In this document: positions 1,960 to 26,004 of the stretch, one piece after another
Layout of the letters: each line of letters starts with the position of its first letter
Numbering within the stretch: position 1 is the first letter of the stretch
Source: Faecalibacter sp. LW9
GTDB taxonomy: Bacteria; Bacteroidota; Bacteroidia; Flavobacteriales; Weeksellaceae
Assembly (NCBI RefSeq): GCF_034661295.1
Contig: NZ_CP141062.1
Span: 124,001-188,000, forward strand
Direction of reading: 5' to 3'
Length of the DNA: 64,000 nt
Translations under genes and position numbers: made by a program
Notes under the pieces: model-generated
What the model saw: only the letters and a program-made list of their open reading frames with translations
Told to the model about the DNA's origin: nothing
The model's database searches: none

Positions 1960-2544
1960 TTATTCTTCATCTACTGTTTGAACAAACTCGATTGAATTTT
2001 CACTTAACCAATCAATGCGTACCAACGATTCGACACGTACCCCTTGATCCATTAATCGACCACGACCTTCTTGAAAAGATTTTTCAATGATAAAGCCCAT
2101 TCCCATTAGATTTGCTCCTGCTTGTTTTATTAAATCTCTTACGCCCAATGCAGCATTTCCGTTTGCTAAAAAGTCATCGATGAAGATAACATTATCCCCT
2201 TCTCCTAAGAATTGATTGCTTACACAGACATCATACGTACGATCTTTCGTAAAAGAATAGACTTGGGTTGCATAAAAATCTTGCATGGTTTTAGGTTTTG
2301 CCTTTTTAACAAAAACTACTGGTAATTCCAATTCTAGCCCCACTAAAATGGCAGGTGCTATTCCGCTGGCTTCAATGGTGATTATTTTATTAATATTTAA
2401 ATCTGAAAAGCGTTTGACAAACTCAGCTGCGATACTTTTCATAAGAATAGGATCCATCTGATGGTTGATAAAACTGTCTACTTTTAAAATTCCACCATCG
2501 AAACTTTTTCCATCCTTTAGAATACGTTCTTTTAAAAGTTCCAT
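1960..2544 (-). CDS. xpt: Xanthine phosphoribosyltransferase
   Basis: Converts xanthine and PRPP to XMP in the cytoplasm (purine salvage). At 194 residues it has the usual Xpt length. The PRPP-binding loop [13 protein letters not shown] is at about residues 119-131. The N-terminal [28 protein letters not shown] is typical of the family. It lies 76 bp downstream of guaA on the same strand. A hairpin terminator sits between them, and I see no separate promoter, so it may depend on readthrough from guaA. An IS end sits directly at its stop codon. Confidence 0.95.
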
Positions 2545-2574
2545 TACTGCTATATTTAGTTTTTAAAGTTTACA

Positions 2575-11573: not shown

Positions 11574-13085
11574 TTAATGCATGAAATGTCTCATTCCTGT
11601 AACCACCATTGGAATACCCTGTTCGTTACAAGCTTGAACTGAATCTTCGTCTTTGATTGAACCTCCTGGTTGAATGATGGCTTTGATTCCGTTAGCAGCA
11701 GCAAAATCAACTACATCACGGAATGGGAAAAAGGCATCAGAAGCTAATACTAAATCATCTTGTACTTTTTCTTTTGCACGCTCAATGGCTTGTTGAGCAG
11801 CCCAAATACGGTTGGTTTGACCACCGCCAATACCGTATGCTTGACCATTTGTAGCCACAACAATTGCATTGGATTTTACCCATTTCACAATTTTTTGTGC
11901 AAACACTAAATCGGTCATTTGTTTTTCCGTTGGTTGAACTTCAGTCACAACTTTTAAATCGGTAGAAAATTGATTATCAGTTGACTGAACAATTAACCCA
12001 CCATCCACTTTTACGTAAGTAACTTTATCCAAAACTGGATTATTTACTTTGATGATACGTACATTTTTCTTTGCTTTAAAAATCTCTAATGCTTCATCTG
12101 TAAATGCAGGAGCGATAACAATTTCTAAGAAAATTTTATTTAATTCTACAGCTGTTTTACCATCTACTTCTTTATTGAAAGCGATAATTCCACCAAAAAT
12201 AGACATTGGATCACACTCATACGCTTTTTGGTAAGCTTCTACTACAGTTTCTCCTATAGCTACACCACAAGGCGTTGAGTGTTTCACTGCACAACACGTA
12301 GTTTCTTCAAATTCTGCAACAACTTTGTAGGCTAAATCCATATCGCGAATATTGTTGAAAGAAAGTTCTTTTCCTTGTAAATATTCGAAGTCTTTCATTG
12401 CACCATTTTTCGTTTTATCAACATAGTAAGCAGCCTTTTGGTGTGGGTTTTCTCCGTAACGTAAGTCCATCACTTTTTCGTAAGAAGACTCTAAGAATTG
12501 AGGGAAATCTTCCCCTAATAAATACGTAGAAATCGCTGCATCATATGCTGAAGTTAAATTGAACACTTTACCTGCACATAATTTACGAGTCTCGATTGAA
12601 GTGGCACCATTTTCACGAATTTCATCCATTACTTTTTGGTAATCGTTCACATCTGTGACTACAGTTACATCATAGAAGTTTTTCGCTGAAGAACGTAACA
12701 TCGATGGACCACCGATATCAATAAATTCAATCATTTCAGCTTCAGATAAACCGGTGTTCATCTTTTCAAAAAATGGATATAAGTTAACGATCACAATATC
12801 GATTGGATTAATTCCATGTTCAGCGATGGTTGCCATATGTTTTTCGTCTGAACGACGAGCCATAATTCCTCCATGAATGGCTGGGTGTAAAGATTTCACA
12901 CGCCCATCTAAAATTTCAGGGAAACCTGTAACATCTTTTACTTCTGTTACTTCAATTCCATTTTCTTGTAAATGTTTGTATGTTCCACCTGTAGATAGGA
13001 TGCTGTATCCTTGTTCTACTAAAAATTGAGCAAATTCTAATAAATTCGATTTATCAGAAACACTAATTAGCGCTTGTTTTTGCAT
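11574..13085 (-). CDS. purH: Bifunctional AICAR formyltransferase / IMP cyclohydrolase
   Basis: Performs the last two steps of IMP synthesis. The 503 residues show an N-terminal IMP cyclohydrolase (MGS-like fold) with [15 protein letters not shown] and GGTYKHL, and [14 protein letters not shown] at about 61-74. The C-terminal transformylase has catalytic Lys-His in [11 protein letters not shown] (about 264-274) and ends [15 protein letters not shown]. It lies 86 bp downstream of purN, with a large palindrome between them. Confidence 0.97.
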
Positions 13086-13136
13086 TTTGTTTAGTTTTTA
13101 AAGTTTATTTGTTTGTTTTTATAATCTGGAAATGAA

Positions 13137-21083: not shown

Positions 21084-24000
21084 TTATTCTCCTCTAAAAT
21101 ACTTCACAGCATTCGCGAAGATATTCATATAGCTTACACCTGGAATATTTTTGTATAAACCTTCTTCGTAACGCTCTGGGTGTCCCATTCTTCCATAAAC
21201 TTTTCCACAAGGAGAAACTATTCCTTCCACTGCGAAAGTCGATCCATTTGGATTGTAGGGCATTCCAGCTGCTAATTCACCATCTAAATTCACATACTGT
21301 GTTGCGATTTGTCCATTGTCAATCAACTTTTGTAGTTCGACATCATTCGCTACAAAACGTCCTTCTCCGTGAGAAAATGGAATCCAATATTCTTGTCCTT
21401 CCATTCCTTGTAACCAAGGGGAGTGCGATTTGTTGACACGAACCTTCGCTAATTGCGTGATGTGACGACCGATTTCGTTAAACGTTAGGGTTGGTGTATC
21501 CTCTTCTAACGTTTGGATTCTACCGTATGGTAATAATCCCGATTTAATTAAGCCTTGGAATCCGTTACAAACGCCTAAAACTAATCCGTCACGATCTAAT
21601 AACTGATGAATCGCCTCTTTTATTTTCTCGTTACGTAAAACTGTTGCAATAAATTTTCCTGATCCGTCTGGTTCATCTGCAGCAGAGAATCCTCCTGGAA
21701 CGAATAAAATATTGGCTTGGTTGATTTCATTGACAAAAGCTTCAACCGAATCCTCAACATCTTGTTTCGTTAAGTTCTTGAATGGAATCGAAGAAACAAC
21801 TGCTCCTTCTCTTCGGAATGCTTTTGCTGAATCGTATTCAGAATTTGTACCTGGGAAGATTGGAATGAAAACACGAGGATTTTCCACCTTAACTTTCGCA
21901 GTTGCAATTGGATCTTTTGCGACTAACGATTGATCTTCGATTGTACCTTCTGCTTTTGATTTATATGGGAATAATGAATGGAATGTTTCTTTCCATTGTT
22001 GTTTTAATTCAACTAAGTCGATTGTTTCACCGTTAATGACAAAAGATTTTTCTGCTTGTGTCGTTCCTAAAACTGTATAGTTTGATTGGATTGACGCAGG
22101 AATTTCGAAATCTGTTGTATGTTCGATGATGATTGCTCCTGGGTAGTATTTTGCTAAATCTAAATCAGAATTAATATTAAATCCGATTTCGTTACCAAAA
22201 GCCATATTGGCTAATGTTTCTGCAATTCCTCCAAATTTCACCGTCATCATTGATTTTACGTTGGTACGATCTAAAGATGAAATGAAGGTGAAAATTTCTT
22301 TTACATTTTCAGCATCTAATAAATAATCTTCGTTTTGTGATGGAACGAAAACTGAAATTTTAGAATTTGGTTGAGCGAATGTACCAGCAACAATTTGATC
22401 ATCTGTTGAAGGCGCTACAGCAAACGAAATTAACGTTGGTGGCACATCAATATCTTGGTATGATCCCGACATTGAATCTTTTCCTCCAATCGCTGGGATT
22501 CCGAATTGTCGTTGTGCTTCAATTGTACCTAAAATTGCTGCAAATGGTTTTCCCCAACGTGTTGCTTCGTCTCTTAACTTTTCAAAATATTCTTGGAAAG
22601 TTAATCGAATATCTTCGTATTTTGCTCCAGCTGCAACAATTTTCGTCATCGAATCTACCACTGCGAAATAACCACCGTGGTAGTTTGACCATCGAGAAAC
22701 CATTGGATTAAATCCGTAAGAAGCAACAGAAACCGCATTTGTAAATCCGTCTGTTGGGAATTTTTGTACGGAAACATCTTCTGGTGTATCCATAAATTGA
22801 CCACCAAAAGCATTTAAAATTGTAGAACGTCCAACATTGTTGTCAAACATTTCTACCATTCCTTTTTGAGATGCGTGATTCAATTCTTGCATCATCGCAA
22901 CAAACGCTTCTTTATTAAAAGGTTTATTCTCAAAAGGATTATGATCTTCTCCGTTCGCAACCTCAACTTTCGCTTGTTTACGAACGCCATTTGTATCTAA
23001 GAATTTACGATCTAATTCAACAATTTTAGTTCCTTTCCAAACTAAAGTCATTGTATCGTCTGCTGTAACTTCCGCTACACAAGTTGCATCTAAATTTTCA
23101 GTTTTTGCTAAAGCGATGAATTTCTCCACGTCTTTTGCTTCTACTGCAACCGCCATACGCTCTTGTGATTCAGAGATGGCTAATTCAGTTCCGTTAAGAC
23201 CTGCATATTTCAATGGAACTTTGTCTAAATCAACATTGATTCCTCGAGCAATTTCTCCGATTGCTACTGAAACCCCACCCGCTCCGAAATCGTTACATTT
23301 TTTAATTAATGCTAAAACTTCTGGATTACGGAATAAACGTTGAATTTTACGTTCAACAATAGCATTTCCTTTTTGTACCTCAGCCGATAAATCGTCTAAT
23401 TTTAAACCGTCGTGCGTTTTTGATGAACCTGAAGCTCCTCCTACTCCATCCCGACCTGTTGCACCACCTAATAAGATGATTTTGTCTCCAGCAAGCGGTT
23501 CTTCACGGCGAACATATTCTTTTTTTACTGCTCCAGCCACAAAACCAACTTCCATGCGTTTTGCTTTGTATCCTTCGTCGTAAATTTCTTTTACGAATGT
23601 TGTCGCTAAACCAATTTGGTTTCCGTAAGAACTGTACCCATTTGCTGCTTCTTTCGAAATTTTACGTTGTGGTAATTTACCTGGTAACGTCTCTTCAATT
23701 TTTTCTAAAGGATTGGCAGCTCCTGTAATACGCATGGCTTGGAAAACATAAGCACGACCACTTAAAGGGTCACGAATTGCTCCACCCACACATGTGGAAG
23801 CACCTCCATAAGGTTCTACTTCTGTTGGGTGATTATGTGTTTCATTTTTGAATTGTAATAACCAATCTTCTTCTACTCCGTCCACAGCAATTGGAACAAC
23901 AATAGAACAAGCATTGATTTCTTCTGAAACGTCAATATTTTTAACAACACCTGTACGCGATAAGTATTTCCCCATAATCGTTGCTAAGTCCATCATACGA

Positions 24001-24794
24001 ATTGGTTTCGTAATGCCTAACTCTTCACGGATTTTTAAGTAATAATCGTACGTGCGTTGGATAGTTTCGTTGAATTGAGAATTAAATTGTACATCTGTAA
24101 TTTCTGTCTCAAACGTCGTATGACGACAGTGATCAGACCAGTATGTATCTAAAACTTTTAATTCTGTATCGGTTGGATTACGGTCAATCGATTTGAAGTA
24201 ATCTTGGATGAATAATAAATCATCCATTTCCATCGATAACCCGTATTGGTTATAGATTTCTTTTAAACCTTCTTCATTGGCCGTTGTAAATCCTTCGATA
24301 ATGGGCACCTCAGTTGCTTCTGGGTTCGATCCGATTTCTAATTGATTTAAATCTTTAACACGCGATTCGATCGGATTAATTAAGTATTCTTGTACTTTTT
24401 GTACATCCTCTTTCGATAAATCGTTATTAAAGACATATAATAAACCTGATTTTACCGTTACATTCTCCACATTCATTAACACTAAGCATTGCTCAGCTGA
24501 ATCGTCGCGTTGATTGTATTGCCCTGGTAAAAATTCTGTTGCGAAATAGTTTTGTGTTTGCGGAAATGAATTGTCTAAAACTTCATTCAAATCAGTATAA
24601 ATAATATCCGTTACAGGATCTGCAAATACGTTATTTTGAGTCAATTGCAACTCATTTTCAGTAATACCAAATAGGTCATAAATAACAAAAACCTTGCACA
24701 CAATTGTAGGTACAAGGTTTTGTAATTCTATCGTAGTATTCTGACTAATAACGTCAAAATTAAGTTTTTTCTGAATGAATAGTCGTTTGTTCAT
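21084..24794 (-). CDS. purL: Phosphoribosylformylglycinamidine synthase, single-chain form
   Basis: Converts FGAR to FGAM using glutamine and ATP. The 1236 residues are the large single-chain type with all domains fused. These are an N-terminal PurS-like region, a linker (DIQDYFK...DTELKVLDTYWSDHCRHTTF, in pieces), and two AIR-synthetase-like halves with FKNETHNHPTEVEPYGGA and GGKDSMSGSY. The C-terminal class I amidotransferase has LFVPGGFSAADEPDGSGK, catalytic Cys in GVCNGFQGLI, FSHGEGRF and GHPERYEEGLY. It leads the purine cluster and is preceded by a riboswitch-like leader of about 215 nt. Confidence 0.97.
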   Translation of the reverse strand: MNKRLFIQKKLNFDVISQNTTIELQNLVPTIVCKVFVIYDLFGITENELQLTQNNVFADPVTDIIYTDLNEVLDNSFPQTQNYFATEFLPGQYNQRDDSAEQCLVLMNVENVTVKSGLLYVFNNDLSKEDVQKVQEYLINPIESRVKDLNQLEIGSNPEATEVPIIEGFTTANEEGLKEIYNQYGLSMEMDDLLFIQDYFKSIDRNPTDTELKVLDTYWSDHCRHTTFETEITDVQFNSQFNETIQRTYDYYLKIREELGITKPIRMMDLATIMGKYLSRTGVVKNIDVSEEINACSIVVPIAVDGVEEDWLLQFKNETHNHPTEVEPYGGASTCVGGAIRDPLSGRAYVFQAMRITGAANPLEKIEETLPGKLPQRKISKEAANGYSSYGNQIGLATTFVKEIYDEGYKAKRMEVGFVAGAVKKEYVRREEPLAGDKIILLGGATGRDGVGGASGSSKTHDGLKLDDLSAEVQKGNAIVERKIQRLFRNPEVLALIKKCNDFGAGGVSVAIGEIARGINVDLDKVPLKYAGLNGTELAISESQERMAVAVEAKDVEKFIALAKTENLDATCVAEVTADDTMTLVWKGTKIVELDRKFLDTNGVRKQAKVEVANGEDHNPFENKPFNKEAFVAMMQELNHASQKGMVEMFDNNVGRSTILNAFGGQFMDTPEDVSVQKFPTDGFTNAVSVASYGFNPMVSRWSNYHGGYFAVVDSMTKIVAAGAKYEDIRLTFQEYFEKLRDEATRWGKPFAAILGTIEAQRQFGIPAIGGKDSMSGSYQDIDVPPTLISFAVAPSTDDQIVAGTFAQPNSKISVFVPSQNEDYLLDAENVKEIFTFISSLDRTNVKSMMTVKFGGIAETLANMAFGNEIGFNINSDLDLAKYYPGAIIIEHTTDFEIPASIQSNYTVLGTTQAEKSFVINGETIDLVELKQQWKETFHSLFPYKSKAEGTIEDQSLVAKDPIATAKVKVENPRVFIPIFPGTNSEYDSAKAFRREGAVVSSIPFKNLTKQDVEDSVEAFVNEINQANILFVPGGFSAADEPDGSGKFIATVLRNEKIKEAIHQLLDRDGLVLGVCNGFQGLIKSGLLPYGRIQTLEEDTPTLTFNEIGRHITQLAKVRVNKSHSPWLQGMEGQEYWIPFSHGEGRFVANDVELQKLIDNGQIATQYVNLDGELAAGMPYNPNGSTFAVEGIVSPCGKVYGRMGHPERYEEGLYKNIPGVSYMNIFANAVKYFRGE

Positions 24795-24906
24795 TGGTGT
24801 GTTTGTCTGTTGTTTGGTTTCATATCTCCAACATATGTATCTACATCAACAAACAAATACTTTTTCTGAGAAGGCGGTTCATACTTTATGTAGTAGAAAA
24901 AAAATT

Positions 24907-24974
24907 CATTTGTAGTGGCAATTTTTTACGGTCTGCCGTAGAGACGCTCAACCTTATTATGAGCTATACAAATG
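24907..24974 (-). promoter_or_regulatory. Purine (guanine-type) riboswitch aptamer in the purL leader
   Basis: Read on the minus strand this 68-nt segment folds as the purine three-way junction. P1 is CAUUUGUA with UACAAAUG, and P2 is GCUCA with UGAGC closing loop UAAUAAGGU. J2/3 is GUCUCUAC, P3 is GGCAG with UUGCC closing a loop with CCGUAAA, and J3/1 is AC. The conserved core is present: UnUCUAC in J2/3, the GG (L2) to CC (L3) kissing bases, CCGUAAA, and the C that selects guanine in J3/1. J1/2 and P2 are shorter and L3 longer than in B. subtilis xpt, so it is a divergent member. P1 is followed by AA and U8 (24897-24904), so ligand-stabilised P1 may itself terminate transcription. Confidence 0.82.
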
Positions 24975-25018
24975 TTGTAAACTTTAAAAACTAAATTCAC
25001 CTCTTTAAAAGTGAAGTG

Positions 25019-25050
25019 CAAATTTAAAAATTAAAAACGGAATAAACCAA
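25019..25050 (-). promoter_or_regulatory. Promoter of purL
   Basis: TTG (25050-25048), a 21-base spacer, then TAAATTTG (25026-25019) match the Bacteroidota -33/-7 consensus. The expected start near 25012 places the riboswitch about 38 nt into the transcript. The rest of the gap (25051-25293) is AT-rich with no gene or structure I can support. Confidence 0.7.
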
Positions 25051-25293: not shown

Positions 25294-26004
25294 TTAAAAT
25301 TCTGCGAAACTTAAGCGATGAATCAGCTCTAAAAAACTTGAAGCATTCGTTTTATTTAAGATATTTTTACGATGGGTATCAATCGTATATTTACTAATGT
25401 TTAATTTATCTGATATTTCTGCACTATTCATTCCTGCTTTGATTAATGTTAAGATTTCGAATTCACGATTCGATAGATTATAACAGTTATCCGAATCAAT
25501 ATAAATCCCTCTAGTCTTATCAAAAATCTTATGATCATTTGCCGGACGGACTTTATAATCGTCCACAATTTGATGCGTAACTAAAGTTTTACTTAAATGT
25601 CCTTGAGTTGTCACCTCAATTGCTTGACATTTTTGTTGAATCGTAATCACCTCTCCATTAGCTTTTACAATACGATAAGTGTAAGAAAACAAGAATTGAA
25701 AATGTTGATTAAACATTAATTGATTGGTAATCTCTAAATCCTTTTCCTCACACTTAAAAAAATAATCCAAATCATCTGGATGAATGATTTTAATCAATTG
25801 ATCCAAATTAAAAGTTTTATTATCGTAGCCGGTGATGGTCTGGAAAGCATTGTTTACAAATGCGATTTCATTTTCTACACAATCATAAATAAAGTAGTAA
25901 TTATCTATTAAATCAGGCTGAAGAGGATCAGTCTTTTCATTCATTTTGGAACTTTGCTTTTGAAAAAGCTCTTGCCATTTTTCATTTTCAATCTTTTTCG
26001 CCAT
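25294..26004 (-). CDS. PAS-domain transcriptional regulator, LuxR family
   Basis: 236 residues. A PAS domain (about 35-145) carries AFVNNAFQTITGYDNKTF and IHPDDLDYFFK. The C-terminal LuxR-type HTH (about 172-232) has LSNREFEILTLIKAGMNSAEISDKLNISKYTIDTHRKNIL (in pieces). There is no receiver domain, so the signal is probably sensed directly by the PAS domain. It stands alone between purL and a small membrane protein on the same strand. The ligand and targets cannot be told from the sequence. Confidence 0.85.
   Translation of the reverse strand: MAKKIENEKWQELFQKQSSKMNEKTDPLQPDLIDNYYFIYDCVENEIAFVNNAFQTITGYDNKTFNLDQLIKIIHPDDLDYFFKCEEKDLEITNQLMFNQHFQFLFSYTYRIVKANGEVITIQQKCQAIEVTTQGHLSKTLVTHQIVDDYKVRPANDHKIFDKTRGIYIDSDNCYNLSNREFEILTLIKAGMNSAEISDKLNISKYTIDTHRKNILNKTNASSFLELIHRLSFAEF

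Follow-up and report, generated by a model that had tools for sequence, protein, structure and literature searches.

The window, a 64 kb stretch of a 3.17 Mb genome, carries the purine synthesis gene purL on its minus strand, preceded by a leader in which a promoter box, an 18-nt element that we call E, a guanine-type purine riboswitch and a run of eight U residues follow one another. Two further purine genes of the window, purH and xpt, carry the reverse complement of E a few nucleotides before their start codons. These features are as follows.

25026-25019, minus strand: TAAATTTG, sigma-A type promoter box (-7) in the leader of purL (consensus match, PMC6847099)
24897..25014, minus strand: predicted 118-nt RNA, from +1 to the end of U8, with 5' hairpin, element E, aptamer and U-run (fold)
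24978..24995, minus strand: element E, UUUAGUUUUUAAAGUUUA, in sense orientation between promoter and aptamer (exact 18-mer search)
24893..24991, minus strand: purine riboswitch of the guanine type, over the span matched by Rfam (RF00167 search)
24974-24967, minus strand: P1 5' strand CAUUUGUA, pairing with the P1 3' strand
24914-24907, minus strand: P1 3' strand UACAAAUG, pairing with the P1 5' strand
24904-24897, minus strand: U8, separated from P1 by two A (sequence)
24848..24868, minus strand: anti-P1 strand, pairing with the P1 3' strand and U8 (-13.3 kcal/mol against a shuffled mean of -6.0, p 0.002)
24801..24812, minus strand: start-proximal strand, CAACAGACAAAC in the RNA, able to pair with the anti-P1 strand once P1 has formed (alternative folds)
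21084..24794, minus strand: purL, phosphoribosylformylglycinamidine synthase (TIGR01857, 1682.8 bits, cut-off 1057.05)
13090..13107, plus strand: E sequence, so that the purH leader reads anti-E, ending 4 nt short of its AUG (exact reverse complement, 18 nt)
11574..13085, minus strand: purH (TIGR00355, 621.5 bits, cut-off 528)
2555..2572, plus strand: E sequence, so that the xpt leader reads anti-E, ending 10 nt short of its AUG (exact; 22 nt with flanks)
1960..2544, minus strand: xpt, xanthine phosphoribosyltransferase (TIGR01744, 282 bits, cut-off 164.45)

The Bacteroidetes -7 consensus is given in PMC6847099 as TANNTTTG, or TAHHTTTG, with a spacing of -12 to -5; the position of the TAAATTTG box and this spacing place the predicted +1 at about 25014. 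The purL open reading frame, assigned by NCBIfam, encodes 1236 amino acids and starts 98 nt past the end of the RF00167 match. Directly upstream of the purL leader lies a minus-strand ORF (25294-26004) ending in a LuxR-type helix-turn-helix, all of whose profile matches fell below the curated cut-offs. At the other end of the window, the 15-mer GTCTTTAAAGATTAC (509-523, inside the ORF 488-1825) has some thirty copies in the genome by approximate count, and these repeats probably belong to a multi-copy insertion element.

The element belongs to the RF00167 purine riboswitch class, as the preliminary description of this DNA had proposed: the Rfam Purine model matched 24893-24991 over its full length (model positions 1-102 of 102), scoring 53.1 bits where the gathering score is 37, with an E-value of 3.3e-6 calculated over the window; nowhere else in the 3.17 Mb genome was there a match at E<=0.001. 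All the parts of the three-way junction listed in that description (P1, P2, J2/3, L3, L2 and J3/1) were found, the core comprising GUCUCUAC in J2/3, CCGUAAA within L3, GG in L2 and AC in J3/1. Positions 46-53 and 74 are cited here in what we take to be the B. subtilis xpt numbering. With numbers so assigned, U51 and C74 are present and position 48 is a C, as it is in 14/14 members of the genus, so that the core bases C74 and U51 identify the riboswitch as guanine-type, with guanine as the predicted ligand, in agreement with the first assignment. The oddities noted there are also real: P2 has 5 pairs, J1/2 is one base short and L3 is enlarged. Relative to genus member L014, which has the usual J1/2 and L3 spacing, and to most relatives in groups g10 and g17, the window aptamer has one base fewer in J1/2 and two more in L3, a spacing common to 13/14 genus members and to the purL-proximal copies L084 and L052. 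(Here and below, g1 is the genus of the window, and g10, g17, g28 and g12 are other groups of relatives in the counts.)

Thirty-three distinct Bacteroidota guanine-type aptamers were aligned, and RNAalifold, predicting its structure from that same alignment, recovered P1, P2 and P3 with two-sided compensatory changes in all three stems. The pair types were U-A, C-G and U-G at P1 columns 3-67; U-A, C-G and U-G at columns 14-28 and A-U and G-C at columns 16-26 of P2; and C-G, A-U and U-A at columns 41-57 and A-U, U-A and G-U at columns 42-56 of P3. Non-standard cells occurred in 4/17 pairs, one to four in each (3-67, 1/33; 12-30, 4; 39-59, 2; 40-58, 1). By eye, GG in L2 and CC in L3 recur across the alignment rows, an observation on the sequence of the L2-L3 loops alone. 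The Rfam search and the covariation check in relatives that had been suggested for this locus gave a match above the cut-off and compensatory changes in P1-P3. A chance origin was rejected on the RF00167 score and the genus-wide conservation; it is unlikely given this score, the presence in 14/14 genus members and the two-sided changes in the P1-P3 pairs.

All 14 genomes of the genus have an RF00167 match, in every case before purL, which bears out the placement in the purL leader of a Bacteroidota host. Across Bacteroidota the presence of RF00167 matches is patchy: they were found in 30/296 genomes and 5/33 genera of the family, in 3/395 genomes of an order sample (all three from the family of the window) and in 5/395 genomes of a phylum sample, one of them the genome of the window. 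A pattern scan of named genomes returned 48 stretches, among them stretches from Empedobacter, Faecalibacter, Chishuiella, Algoriella, Weeksella, Vaginella and Amniculibacterium, and from six assemblies, labelled Chitinophagaceae or Bacteroidetes, in which a purL-like start follows; the remainder were mostly Clostridia-type records, and a small number were Mycoplasma-type or fusobacterial. The family to which one of these six assemblies belongs gave an RF00167 match in 3/294 genomes, that assembly counted. Group g12 contains guanine-type aptamers that are not placed before purL (L030 and L024, at 1501-1598), the former preceding, by eye, a transporter-like ORF. Among the matches listed from the open-licence literature, there was no report of a guanine riboswitch before purL in Bacteroidota.

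The other four genomes of the phylum sample contributed five loci (L031-L035) with, by eye, C51 and extra bases in J3/1. These loci, at 1501-1606, resemble the 2'-dG-II type and lie before genes that look by eye like endonuclease I genes. The 2'-dG-II riboswitch of Bacteroidetes is described in PMC8872408 by C51, a two-nucleotide insertion in J3/1 and a G-C junction pair, and it shares family and phylum with the window element. That such relatives exceed the RF00167 gathering score could suggest that the window aptamer senses 2'-deoxyguanosine, or adenine, instead of guanine. We regard this as very improbable, and both types were rejected by the core bases: the window has U51, C74, an A-U junction pair and a J3/1 of AC only, and of the 2'-dG-II features given in PMC8872408 (C51, the two J3/1 bases, the G-C junction pair and the endonuclease I-type genes) it has none.

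How might guanine binding reach purL? The preliminary description had suggested that there may be no separate expression platform. This was unsupported by our analysis, as the P1 3' strand, together with the U-run itself, can form a helix with the anti-P1 strand (window p 0.002). In 34 distinct purL leaders we compared the duplex between the P1 3' strand with its following bases and the rest of the leader against 500 dinucleotide shuffles, and it beat the shuffles at p<=0.05 in 29/34: 11/12 in g1, 5/5 in g10, 2/6 in g17, 3/3 in g28 and 8/8 in Chitinophagaceae. The helix was not significant in the remaining 4/6 g17 leaders and in the g1 leader L027 (p 0.096). In four leaders (L025, L026, L028 and L029) changed bases after P1 were matched by a changed partner strand. 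The first tandem aptamer of Vaginella (L005/L085) was omitted from this test, from the alternative folds and from the shuffle test of the start that follows; the duplicates L017 and L023, L024/L030 of g12, and L031-L035 were left out, as were the orphans L018 and L019 wherever purL was needed.

Alternative folds, computed without the L2-L3 contact and the ligand energy, suggest what the helix may do: forcing P1 frees the anti-P1 strand, which can then pair immediately ahead of purL, and blocking P1 opens the start region in the majority of Weeksellaceae leaders. When accessibility of the start in the absence and presence of P1 was compared against 40 spacer shuffles in 26 Weeksellaceae and 8 Chitinophagaceae leaders, opening reached p<=0.05 in 19/26 of the former (g1 9/12, g10 4/5, g17 4/6, g28 2/3) and in 0/8 of the latter. 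The leader of the window itself failed this test (effect 0.05, p 0.20), as did the genus leaders L014 and L027, and its unconstrained fold retains P1 (0.95); since the window leader is among the failures, the start-closing step proposed for it rests on its relatives.

Together, these results lead us to propose, with a probability of roughly 0.7, that the element is a guanine-class purine riboswitch whose predicted function is to turn purL down when guanine is plentiful. Guanine binding would close P1; the downstream anti-P1 strand, left free, would then pair beside the purL start codon and reduce translation. When guanine is absent, the P1 3' strand and the U-run would instead be taken up by the anti-P1 strand, and the purL start would stay open. 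Structure around the start partly tunes translation in F. johnsoniae (PMC6847099).

The run of P1 straight into AA-U8, seen also in the first description, invites another explanation, namely that ligand-bound P1 and U8 form a terminator near 24897 and need no other platform, an arrangement compatible with a translational layer. A U-run of at least 6 directly follows P1 in 14/14 g1 and 6/6 g28 aptamers (20/20 for the two groups), and elsewhere in 0/5 of g10, 0/6 of g17 and 1/8 of Chitinophagaceae, whereas 20-nt windows across the 64 kb contain such a run in 2-3% of cases; in two Weeksella-type genomes, aptamers without a gene end likewise, in P1 and then a U-run. Against this, P1 has 7-8 pairs, of which one or two are G-C, around a loop of about 52 nt, and the U-run also belongs to the anti-P1 helix, whose partner strand varies with it in the four leaders named above. 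On this ground we rejected the idea that U8 serves solely as a terminator. Moreover, a strand made about 30 nt later could not undo termination at U8, which implies that the conserved anti-P1 helix would have to serve a step after or besides termination. We consider P1-U8 as a self-sufficient terminator somewhat doubtful. The U-run is a matter of conservation within one clade, and termination near 24897 a possible, predicted event: in the Empedobacter-Weeksella-Vaginella clade P1 and its immediate U-run may stop transcription there in addition to the translational control proposed for purL. The purL leaders also offer concrete cases for asking whether an aptamer stem can double as a terminator stem.

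A stop near 24897 would release the 118-nt RNA, and an element in its 5' part is complementary to the leaders of purH and xpt. This element, E, was absent from the feature list of the preliminary description and is new here. The exact 18-mer occurs at three sites in the whole genome, namely the purL leader, purH and xpt, and sites with up to two mismatches are about as frequent as those of a reversed-pattern control. In a duplex ranking over the 57 ORF start regions of the window (mechanical ATG ORFs of at least 100 aa), the 5' part of the purL leader paired best with the xpt start (-25.9 kcal/mol, rank 1/57) and second best with the purH start (-17.6 kcal/mol, rank 2/57), the energies across the 57 starts having a mean of -10.8 and an s.d. 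of 3.3. The predicted fold of the 118-nt RNA shows a 5' hairpin, E mostly unpaired (mean unpaired probability 0.74), the aptamer and U8; in the folds of four distinct g1 5' regions the hairpin likewise forms and E is unpaired. Of the two Weeksella orphans, L018 has much of E paired in its best local fold and L019 does not.

A 12-nt core of E is present in 14/14 g1 leaders, in two g10 genomes (G009 and, further upstream, G038) and in three g28 genomes, and its complement precedes purH in 18/19 of these genomes, G121 having the complement with one base deleted. The complement was found before purH in 0/7 genomes that have the riboswitch, have an identified purH start and lack E in the ~85 nt before P1, and in 0/13 further purH leaders (two of them from g12, with an RF00167 match elsewhere). 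As the genomes are nested by descent, these counts represent few independent gains or losses of E and anti-E. The distance from the end of the anti-E core to the start codon is 6-14 nt, except for 23 nt in G028. In the xpt leader the core is exact in 5/12 g1 genomes and differs by small changes or more in the others. Starts of purH were found in 26/27 genomes (not in G107), and none for L139, L144 and L154; an xpt start was not found in G061 and G049, G092 has no close xpt, and G079 has no purH match.

Pairing between E and each leader was evaluated per genome with 200 shuffles. For purH the duplex reached p<=0.05 in 13/14 g1 genomes (G061, 0.065) and in G028 (0.050), G049 (0.005) and G064 (0.010), and did not in G009 (p 0.090); the p of 0.96 for G038 says nothing on E, as the 48-nt window missed its further-upstream copy. 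Among genomes without E the purH values ran from 0.065 (G055) to 0.950. For xpt, 10/12 g1 genomes reached p<=0.05, the values not significant being those of G109 (0.065) and G021 (0.617) in g1, and of G064 (0.577). When partners were permuted among ten chosen genomes of the 19, the own-genome pairing was at least matched by 121/10000 permutations, a result that shared ancestry or a shared operator could give equally.

Two g28 (Weeksella-type) genomes carry a promoter box, E, an aptamer and a U-run with no purL or other convincing same-strand gene downstream. These gene-less units, for which L018 and L019 are the orphan loci, are located as follows.

L191, ~1946-2045: gene-less unit
L192, ~2030-2129: gene-less unit

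In G049 the unit follows an ORF that looks by eye like mpl/murC, and is itself followed by the 3' end of an opposite-strand ORF that looks like a histidine kinase; a mechanical 108-codon TTG ORF begins within its aptamer. The corresponding region of G064 is about 92% identical in alignment, the differences being, by eye, few through E and the aptamer and more frequent immediately upstream of them. Both genomes have another aptamer at purL, 4.4 kb further along in G049 and 5.2 kb in G064, and this copy does not contain the E core. Vaginella massiliensis has tandem guanine aptamers before purL, 217 bp apart (L041 2517-2759, L085), of which the first carries E and the second has its own TAATTTTG box.

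Two explanations of E appear to us possible and of equal weight, each falling somewhat short of even odds. In one, the leader yields a guanine-responsive small RNA: with P1 closed and the transcript ending at U8, the 118-nt product with its exposed E would pair over the purH and xpt starts, so that a single aptamer would switch purL in cis and purH and xpt in trans. In the other, E and the anti-E copies would act as DNA, serving a hypothetical purine regulator as operators or parts of promoters, and the antisense orientation would be incidental. An RNA role is consistent with the position of E downstream of the promoter box, its predicted mostly unpaired state in the window and the antisense copies near both start codons. 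Under it, Weeksella would split the jobs between the gene-less unit of E, aptamer and U-run and the separate E-less aptamer before purL. The occurrence of E without a U-run in g10 genomes weakens the tie between E and termination. An operator would explain the joint gain and loss of E and its partner and needs no pairing; in support of it, the exact 18-mer sites of the genome are confined to purL, xpt and purH, and E contains a loose direct repeat (AGTTT twice, by eye). In addition, hairpins that look by eye like terminators stand immediately upstream of xpt and, for most g1 genomes, of purH. With so little space left, a promoter may lie near or over the anti-E site; otherwise xpt and purH may depend on read-through.

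Against the operator, a TAHHTTTG box within 200 nt was found in 0/12 cases before xpt and in 1/19 before purH, at -196, although a promoter could exist there despite the missing box, since flavobacteria also use other sigma motifs, about 7% of F. psychrophilum promoters falling outside the sigma-A motif (PMC9723704). A promoter at the anti-E site would also give an almost leaderless mRNA, whereas most F. johnsoniae transcripts are leadered (PMC6847099). The absence of a TAHHTTTG match, the short distance of 6-14 nt from core to start codon and the prevalence of leadered transcripts led us to reject anti-E as a plain sigma-A promoter. Furthermore, E lies inside the predicted transcript, its core stands at distances ranging from ~6 to 36 nt from the promoter box between genera (by eye), and the gene-less RNA unit of Weeksella retains it. 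Wobble-compatible drift in anti-E, scored by eye, involved too few changes to separate RNA from DNA. If E acts as RNA, this would be a purine riboswitch working in trans inside its own pathway, and in Weeksella the gene-less unit would represent a small RNA that senses a metabolite in nature. Among the matches listed from the open-licence literature, no title dealt with a guanine riboswitch that acts in trans.

The closest relative in structure is presumably the guanine riboswitch of the B. subtilis xpt-pbuX type (RF00167): both have the three-way junction, the J2/3 and L3 core, C74, U51 and a downstream purine gene. The window element differs from it in its 5-pair P2, short J1/2, enlarged L3, Bacteroidota host, U-run after P1 and element E.

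For the part proposed in trans, the nearest parallel is the SAM riboswitch SreA of Listeria, which once terminated yields an RNA that acts on prfA in trans; as presented in PMC8079631, it is a leader RNA that combines cis control with a proposed pairing to the leader of another mRNA. Complementarity to distant mRNA leaders is likewise present here, over 18 nt for purH and 22 nt for xpt. The window element differs in ligand class and phylum, and in having two candidate targets from the same pathway, with pairing beside the AUG predicted from sequence. Short RNAs also arise from the SAM-II riboswitches of metZ and metA, which yield the sRNAs RZ, RA1 and RA2, the metA riboswitch controlling translation as well (PMC9373788); the ligand there is another one, and the account in that source, as far as it extends here, names no trans target. 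SreA and the SAM-II RNAs provide precedent for riboswitch leaders that yield separate RNAs (PMC8079631, PMC9373788).
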